Source: Agathobacter ruminis (GTDB lineage Bacteria; Bacillota; Clostridia; Lachnospirales; Lachnospiraceae). From it: a stretch of DNA of 64,000 nucleotides. Numbering within the stretch: the first letter of the stretch is position 1; each line of letters starts with the position of its first letter. Under the pieces are notes generated by a model that saw nothing but the letters and a program-made list of their open reading frames with translations, was not told where the DNA came from and did not search any database. Of the stretch, positions 6,289-48,512 are shown piece by piece. Location: contig NZ_PDYG01000100.1 of the NCBI RefSeq assembly GCF_002735305.1, positions 1 through 64,000 of the forward strand. Direction: 5' to 3'. Position numbers and translations under genes: made by a program.

Positions 6289-6290
6289 AT

Positions 6291-6416
6291 TTATCTCAGT
6301 CGGGGTTACAATCTCCGACTGAGATAAACGCTCCGCGAGGATGCGCAGAGATTTGCATATGAAATATGTCAGCTACGCTGACGCAAATCTCGCGCCAAGT
6401 CTCGCGAGCGAGACTT
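6291..6416. repeat. Multi-hairpin structured element A
   Basis: A compact series of stems: a 13-bp perfect hairpin (6291-6303 with 6315-6327), a CGCTCCGC..GGATGCGC motif, a 9-bp stem (6348-6356 with 6383-6391) enclosing the hairpin GTCAGC-tac-GCTGAC (6368-6382), and a 9-bp hairpin (6397-6416). The order and spacing match element B at 56170-56299, although the stem sequences differ. Both copies lie directly after a terminator. Strand of action unknown. Confidence 0.75.
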
Positions 6417-6427
6417 GAATTGCGCGC

Positions 6428-6982
6428 ATTACCTAATATCCTCAGCCCATAAACCCGGTAACCCCTTCACTTTGCAAGAATATTTTGGTTTTCATATATG
6501 CAAAAGCTCGCATCCTGATTTTCATGTGTCTTTTGAATGCCTGTACAATTTTGAAAAAAAGTTTATCGTTGGCGGACACACAAAGCGATTGTATATGGAC
6601 TTCTCATCTAAAGGATACCCGGGTGAATTGGAGTGAGCCCTAGTGAAATAAAAATGAGTTTTGATGTTTATAGGTATGCGCCGCCACGGAAGGCGGCGCA
6701 AATGCGATTGCAACACGACGTTGCGTAATGCATGGTGCCTATAAACACAAAACTCATTTTGTCATTTCACTTGGCAAACGGAGTCTGAACCCGGGTATCC
6801 CTTAGACTGAGAAGTACATAATATCAACAAACTAGGTGTCCGCCACTTCATAAACCTTTTTCAAAATGGTTCATTCATCAAAAGACACATGTGTGATGCT
6901 CGCCTTTTGCATATTGAAAACCTTAAATATTCGCAAAATTGTGAAGGGGGTACCGGGTTTATGGGCTGAGGATGTCAGGCAA
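6428..6982. repeat. Giant imperfect palindrome 1 (~555 bp)
   Basis: Two arms of about 250 bp pair around a centre near 6705. Paired blocks include 6441-6470 with 6941-6970, 6474-6506 with 6904-6934, the GGCGGACAC block near 6571 with GTGTCCGCC near 6836, GGATACCCGGGT near 6613 with ACCCGGGTATCC near 6789, and ATGAGTTTT near 6654 with AAAACTCAT near 6748. The tip (about 6673-6738) forks into an 8-bp hairpin GCGCCGCC-ACGGAA-GGCGGCGC (6678-6699) and a smaller one (GCAAC-GTTGC, 6710-6724). No gene product is recognisable inside. As RNA it would be a long rod with a forked head; as DNA it could extrude a cruciform or be a foldback-type mobile element. Confidence 0.9.
6678..6699. repeat. Apical hairpin of palindrome 1, shared with palindrome 2
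   Basis: An 8-bp stem closes the loop ACGGAA. The 6-bp inner stem and five of the six loop bases recur at 48323-48340 in an otherwise unrelated giant palindrome. Confidence 0.85.
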
Positions 6983-7002
6983 TACATGCTGTGAATGGCA
7001 AC
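6928..7002. repeat. 75-bp dispersed module, copy 2 (upstream of surface protein gene)
   Basis: This second copy of the module at 283-357 overlaps the right outer arm of giant palindrome 1 and extends about 20 bp past it. As with copy 1, a plus-strand gene starts within about 130 bp. Confidence 0.8.
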
Positions 7003-48058: not shown

Positions 48059-48078
48059 TGACAGTTCGCCCCTCTTAC

Positions 48079-48496
48079 CGCCCCACTATCATCTGCCGGT
48101 CAGGACACACGGCATTCGAAAGCAAGATTCTCCGCAAAGCCGCGCACCGCTTCTTTGATTGAGGTTGTTCTTTCAACTATTTGCACTTCTCCGGCACTGT
48201 CTTTTCCACGCAAACACCCGATATTCCTGATCACTTTCCTGGGCCATATAGACCGGTGGAGGAACATCATTGGGAACGCGCTTAGTAAAACAGAAGCCGC
48301 TTTTGCGAAGCGCTCGATACGAGCCGCCACGGACGGCGGCGAGAGCCGATGGCGTCCCGGATGGACGCTCTGAGGCGGTATCGAGCGCTCAAAAACGGCT
48401 TCGTTGTTTTACTTAGCAAATGGACAGTGTTCCGTACCGGTCTATATAGGACAGGCGCGCCTATCATGTCCTGACCGGCAGATGGTGGCGGGGTGG
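48079..48496. repeat. Giant imperfect palindrome 2 (~418 bp)
   Basis: The 581-bp gap between tmcAL and the HAD gene is mostly this element. Outer arms 48079-48109 and 48466-48496 pair, sharing CATCTGCCGGTCAGGACA with only small changes around it. Inner arms 48241-48323 and 48373-48452 pair (GCCATATAGACCGGT with ACCGGTCTATATAGG; GCGCTTAGTAAAACA with TGTTTTACTTAGC; GAAGCGCTCGATAC with GTATCGAGCGCTC). The left side carries about 131 nt (48110-48240) between the arms with only about 13 nt opposite. The tip again forks into two hairpins (48323-48340 and 48352-48368). It ends about 17 bp before the -35 of the HAD gene. Confidence 0.9.
48323..48340. repeat. Apical hairpin of palindrome 2, shared with palindrome 1
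   Basis: GCCGCC pairs with GGCGGC around ACGGAC. The tip of palindrome 1 (6680-6697) differs at a single loop base. The second tip hairpin (48352-48368) is GCGTCC/GGACGC with loop CGGAT. Confidence 0.85.
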
Positions 48497-48512
48497 CAGG
48501 AGGGGCGATTGT

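Follow-up and report, generated by a model that had tools for sequence, protein, structure and literature searches.

The giant palindrome in the window (by which we mean the whole 64-kb stretch of DNA analysed here) is probably one copy of a mobile foldback element, a MITE-like and nonautonomous element of Lachnospiraceae, that carries a TwoAYGGAY CsrA-type RNA module at the tip of its hairpin. The parts of this copy, and of a second copy in the window, are given in Table 1.

Table 1. Parts of the two foldback element copies in the window
Feature	Position	Strand	Remarks
Foldback element copy 1, subfamily 1	6428..7002	+	left inverted terminus lost, right kept
Left arm, outer stem of copy 1	6428..6627	+	
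Apical core, RF01731 (TwoAYGGAY)	6628..6786	+	65.4 bits
Tip hairpin 1, loop C-ACGGAA-G	6677..6700	+	GGA hexaloop at 6686-6691
Tip hairpin 2, loop C-ACGAC-G	6710..6724	+	without GGA, like the listed subfamily 1 cores
Right arm, outer stem of copy 1	6787..6988	+	
Right inverted terminus GTTGCCATTCACAG	6989..7002	-	one mismatch to GTTACCATTCACAG
Second window copy, subfamily 2, different arms	48066..48508	+	long palindrome
Core of second copy, RF01731	48270..48428	+	52.9 bits; loops CACGGACG and CCCGGATG, both with GGA

The palindrome is confirmed and lies far outside what chance would give. Positions 6400-7010 fold with -301.3 kcal/mol on the + strand, as against -156.9 (sd 6.2) for shuffled sequences (z -23.5), and with -310.4 kcal/mol on the - strand, as against -152.0 (sd 8.3; z -19.2), the controls being 20 dinucleotide shuffles per strand. 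Its outermost arms (6428-6470 and 6941-6983) are complementary at 91% across 43 nt, six more arm pairs of the same rod (I2-I4 and I6-I8) lead inward from 6428/6983 to the centre, and the tip splits into two hairpins, which bears out the forked shape described in the initial annotation. The right edge had been placed at 6982 and needs correction, as the right inverted terminus of the element runs to 7002. On the left, this copy has lost its terminus at about 6428 and directly borders another repeat. This different repeat (6290-6427, TCTCAGTCGG... to ...GCGAGACTTGAA) recurs almost identically in L038, while L045 has a related piece, and it looks like a second dispersed repeat family.

The statement that no described family has this shape was mistaken for the centre of the palindrome. 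At Rfam gathering scores the window contains two matches, both to RF01731 (TwoAYGGAY), and the core of each copy exceeds the cut-off of 43 bits. Copy 1 lacks the pair of AYGGAY loops (its loops are ACGGAA and ACGAC); its score and its homology to other copies suggest a degenerate member of the family. In the accessible text of its 2010 description, TwoAYGGAY is presented as a probable RNA, neither cis-regulatory nor a riboswitch (PMC2864571); its Rfam type is Cis-reg. The accessible text of a paper from 2014 (PMC4333381) calls the external stem not well conserved and puts forward, as a hypothesis for testing, that TwoAYGGAY is a CsrA-binding RNA of Clostridia. Escherichia coli CsrB, used by us as a yardstick, belongs to the same Rfam clan, CL00106. 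Main-text passages of the literature naming TwoAYGGAY contain no link to a transposon or long foldback element, and no transposon or foldback link was found in the accessible parts of the literature on TwoAYGGAY or CsrA with MITEs, palindromes or Bacillaceae-1. Our elements share with the known family a core above the gathering cut-off, two hairpins and, in most copies, consensus loops. They differ in that the foldback element extends beyond the known model, which covers just its tip, and in that the Rfam type is cis-regulatory whereas the orientation found here is random.

Dispersed copies are present: the genome of the window itself (G000) has 25 RF01731 matches, 24 of them over the cut-off. 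Thirteen of 60 genomes, G000 included, carry the family, two of them with more than 30 matches; up to 38 candidates were scored per genome, which makes the high counts minimum values. A sample across the class, with up to 7 candidates scored per genome, gave a match in 37 of 391 genomes and a match over the cut-off in 28. Outside the genus, the arms pair beyond the Rfam model more than in any of 100 shifted controls at nine of ten loci (one locus at a contig edge was left out); at the exception, L248, such pairing is not above the shifted controls. The copies of G000 form two subfamilies, with L050 apart from both, and between lineages the arms and ends vary while the tip is conserved. No carrier was seen, since phages and plasmids gave no match to the element and viral contigs no exact hit to a 19-base core pattern. 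At L185, L196, L216, L018, L236 and L237, copies are paired in opposite orientation, with cores only about 130-570 bp apart.

Of the three options initially offered for the palindrome, that of a foldback mobile element is supported for the whole by inverted ends, an 8-bp duplication signal and the dispersed copies. The window finding belongs to subfamily 1, whose full-length copies measure 595-600 bp and have the termini GTTACCATTCACAG/CTGTGAATGGTAAC, the inverted ends being 14 bp long (GTTACCATTCACAG). Both termini are retained, with up to 3 mismatches allowed, in 12 elements of G000. Identity between their flanks peaks at exactly 8 bp (0.60, as against 0.30 for mismatched partners), with 0.46 at 7 bp and 0.42 at 9 bp, and 7-8 of 8 flank positions match in 3/12 elements as against 0/132 controls. 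The same 8-bp peak (0.58 vs 0.35) recurs for 11 elements in 13 stretches of G031, G372 and G455, with exact 8/8 duplications at L257 and L259, both in G031; six of these 11 are shorter and represent a sister element that has the ends GTTACTATTCACAG. Bacterial MITEs, for example ERIC/IRU and Correia elements, are short, gene-less and palindromic, with inverted ends and target duplication. The present element is like them in all these respects, terminal inverted repeats being found in the 12 G000 elements and a target-site duplication in subfamily 1 and its relatives; it differs from them in the conserved forked RNA module at its tip and in arms that are copy-specific in several genomes. Copy 1 of the window keeps the right end only and, with its left end lost, could not show a duplication. 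No empty site was found to compare with it, because synteny with L099 starts only downstream of the surface-protein gene, and the nearest kinase match outside G000 among the 60 genomes (G000 included) has 31% identity. The adjacent enzyme gene, which we take to encode pyruvate:ferredoxin oxidoreductase, has 97% protein identity to Lachnospiraceae bacterium SIG321, the nearest named relative by that gene.

Half of the 12 G000 elements (6/12, 273-463 bp) are tip-less, with the centre cut out, and none of these scores as RF01731. One common deletion junction, read by eye, is present at two sites (L055 and L059), and another common tip-deletion junction occurs at different sites in G031 (L258 and L260). 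The tip-less form seems to have moved; since tip-less copies with a common junction stand at different sites, the tip appears not to be needed in cis for movement. As a transposase partner, IS66 was rejected because its transposase is absent from G000. Among the matches listed, G000 has no facing ends 1-3 kb apart, and the end pairs and the IS66 search brought no autonomous partner to light. In G455, facing ends GTTACTATTCACAG, 1.26 kb apart (L264:608-1871), have a 192-bp element between them along with two small frames, presumably akin to a toxin-antitoxin pair; this end pair was rejected as an autonomous element, as it holds small genes only and no transposase-sized frame. An element of 191-193 bp in L251-L256 (G372 and G455), with two long hairpins and ends GTTACTATTCACAG, is too short for TwoAYGGAY plus arms and is probably a sister MITE that shares its transposase.

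At the tip, base pairing carries the mark of a constrained strand. A model built from 24 cores gave 121 matches in 100 loci, 114 of them distinct. The cells of the 19 model pairs in these 114 cores comprise 1947 Watson-Crick pairs, 52 G-T, 3 A-C, 150 others and 14 gaps. Because A-C on one strand is G-T on the other, the ratio of 52:3 indicates that folding of the + strand is constrained. Covariation in the tip stems is 0.588, as against 0.146 for shuffled and 0.06-0.12 (at most 0.122) for slid partners. GGA is found in both loops of 91/114 cores and in at least one loop of 112/114. Loops of eight letters (the first in 100/114 cores, the second in 98/114) read C-A-N-G-G-A-N-G. In the 100 first loops the fixed letters are C in 100, A in 99, G in 98, G in 99, A in 100 and G in 100, and the loop of hairpin 2 is slightly looser (A in 88/98). 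In the comparison of orthologues, the six fixed loop positions differ in 1/240 cells and the two N positions in 9/80. According to the accessible text of PMC4005645, an ANGGAX hexaloop on a stem is the high-affinity form for RsmE/CsrA. The listed subfamily 1 cores, the window copy among them, have ACGAC as second loop; with GGA lost there, one CsrA-type site would be left, and the window copy would be a weaker site than most. In alignment A2, a GGA-free loop, C-ACGAY-G, turns up repeatedly in different lineages, in hairpin 1 of some and hairpin 2 of others.

We think that the tip is a candidate CsrA-binding module carried by the element. The GGA hexaloops on stems of CsrB/RsmY-type RNAs are found in the window, with one such loop in copy 1 and two GGA loops in copy 2. 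The sponge RNAs CsrB, CsrC and RsmX/Y/Z have such hexaloops in common with the element, and CsrB its Rfam clan; they differ from it in that they bring many sites together at one locus, whereas the element offers one or two candidate sites per copy in many dispersed copies and has its candidate RNA carried by a repeat. csrA is encoded in G000 and, among the 391 class members, in 32/37 motif carriers as against 97/354 others (Fisher p 2e-12, relatedness ignored). The carriers without a csrA match are G248, G287, G322, G338 and G381, three of which are less than 90% complete. Among the 60 nearest genomes, csrA is present in 12/13 carriers and 38/47 others, which is uninformative.

Of 100 copies in four genomes, 20 have convergent and 12 divergent neighbours, and those between co-directional genes comprise 31 in sense and 37 in antisense orientation; these counts use simple longest-ORF calls, with core-overlapping frames left out and an intergenic position assumed. 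Scanned with a simple consensus, the element shows no internal promoter-like site. Together with the random gene orientation, this leaves its transcription unexplained. Both observations would suit a purely selfish foldback MITE, whose forked tip would serve transposition or stability as a hairpin of single-stranded DNA and whose GGA loops would be no CsrA site. The 52:3 bias would fit one DNA strand as well, G-T mismatches being tolerated in DNA hairpins too. We nevertheless consider such an element rather unlikely: tip-less copies with a common junction occupy different sites, the tip being apparently dispensable in cis, the loop letters and their changes track the CsrA/RsmE hexaloop position by position, and the motif co-occurs with csrA.

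The history of the arms can be followed in G014 and G016, which share about 95-98% identity over most of the aligned blocks. In G016, outer arms differ widely among copies and mostly match inside each copy. Among 22 orthologous copies, 6 have a tip that is inverted with respect to the flanks, and at L205/L214 both arms have been replaced together. With this last pair left out, 21 orthologous pairs give 1020 columns, of which 18 have identical changes in the two arms, 115 have changes in a single arm and 41 are unclassed; by our estimate, about one symmetric column would be expected under independent change. Transversions, for which there is no G-U intermediate, make up six of the 18 symmetric changes. 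In the same 21 pairs, divergence is 0.9% (7/798) in the tip stems, 1.1% (4/376) in the junction, 3.0% (64/2119) in the lower core, 3.0% (321/10713) in the flanks and 6.7% (90/1335) in the arms. That the arms evolve faster than the flanks is a tentative conclusion, because the value for the flanks is lowered by the omission of 5/42 flank stretches with more than 20% divergence.

Polymerase template switching between inverted repeats has two described outcomes, homogenisation of the arms and inversion of the spacer (accessible text of PMC8604942 and PMC8794818). By analogy, the concerted arm change and tip inversion seen here are probably a footprint of this process; the tip could also be inverted by homologous recombination between the arms. 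Our elements share both outcomes with the template-switch hairpins of those texts; unlike them, they are a single repeat present in many parallel copies, in which an RNA-constrained tip adjoins arms free of this constraint. Since template switching in DNA also yields paired changes, the initial suggestion that compensatory changes would speak for RNA is unsafe here. Copying of the arms from the flanks on insertion was dropped, as subfamily 1 arms are common to different copies.

Many copies in G014 and G016 have conserved ends, but no clear inverted repeat. G016 lacks two of the G014 copies, with no clean target duplication at these sites, and a third copy is half deleted. Clean empty sites with target duplications had been proposed as support for a mobile element; the duplication signal, of 8 bp, was indeed obtained, and a clean duplication at the two element-free sites was not. 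For this reason insertion and deletion are indistinguishable at these two sites and, the G014/G016 ends being unclear as well, the demonstration of mobility is confined to subfamily 1 and its relatives. The unclear ends would agree with a different origin, in ancient and dispersed CsrA-sponge RNA genes: template switching would have made their hairpin arms palindromic and variable, the subfamily 1 termini would have come later, and mobility would be secondary. So would a tip that is conserved while arms and ends differ by lineage, and the two-flank matches between G014 and G016, where 30/41 rows were scored present at the same sites (shared copies are counted from both sides, and 35 copies have no two-flank match). 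Such an origin is nonetheless improbable, because tens of randomly oriented copies, many with common end motifs, imply past dispersal by some route. Two tip copies of G016 (L192:15881 and L194:12282) start at model position 37, behind identical foreign sequence that we take to resemble a group II intron. Also in G016, three tandem copies (L207:8773-9649) lie next to repeated TGTTTCACGTGAAACA sites, presumably similar to parS.

The Rfam type would make the motif a cis-regulatory RNA acting on adjacent genes, which is very unlikely, since the random orientation of the 100 copies argues against cis-regulation, the tip is inverted at 6/22 shared sites, and the motif is scored as not cis-regulatory in the accessible text of the discovery paper (PMC2864571). 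Below the tip, the mismatches in the outer arms number 292 G-T and 339 A-C. At 0-16 nt below the fork, a blind arm alignment gives 10 G-T and 90 A-C in columns that are unpaired in the model, and this bin runs against the simple wobble rule; the stem at 16-64 nt has 93 G-T and 59 A-C, and the arms more than 64 nt from the fork 318 and 404, reversed if anything. RNA-like constraint is clear at the tip only, with perhaps a slight one in the stem just below it. Of the initial options, a structured RNA is supported for the tip only; a working rod RNA 400-600 nt long finds no support, because the outer-arm mismatches show no RNA-strand preference. That the whole rod of about 555 nt is one long functional double-stranded RNA is hardly credible: despite the extreme folding energy and some G-T excess at 16-64 nt, G-T does not exceed A-C farther out, the two strands fold nearly equally, and tip-less and shortened forms persist.

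Our preferred explanation remains a mobile foldback element with a CsrA-type RNA module at its tip. A transposase acting in trans would move the element, while polymerase template switching between the arms would keep every copy self-complementary and occasionally flip the tip. Copies transcribed in the + orientation would display C-ANGGAN-G hexaloops that bind CsrA, and the copies would jointly form a dispersed CsrA decoy.

These elements also carry a warning, as DNA template switching can produce covariation even in hairpin arms that are not RNA; a strand-specific wobble count, for which the element has a built-in control, tells RNA covariation from template switching. An orphan RNA family of 2010 would gain a physical setting, the tip of a foldback transposon, and a testable candidate partner, CsrA, in Clostridia. 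Sponge RNAs of the CsrA class had by 2014 been identified only in Gammaproteobacteria, according to the accessible text of PMC4333381. It is possible, though we hold it doubtful, that the element is a mobile and invertible CsrA sponge, in which transposition sets the number of decoys and tip inversion switches between the read-through strand and the silent strand; if so, it would provide a heritable adjustment of the CsrA regulon.
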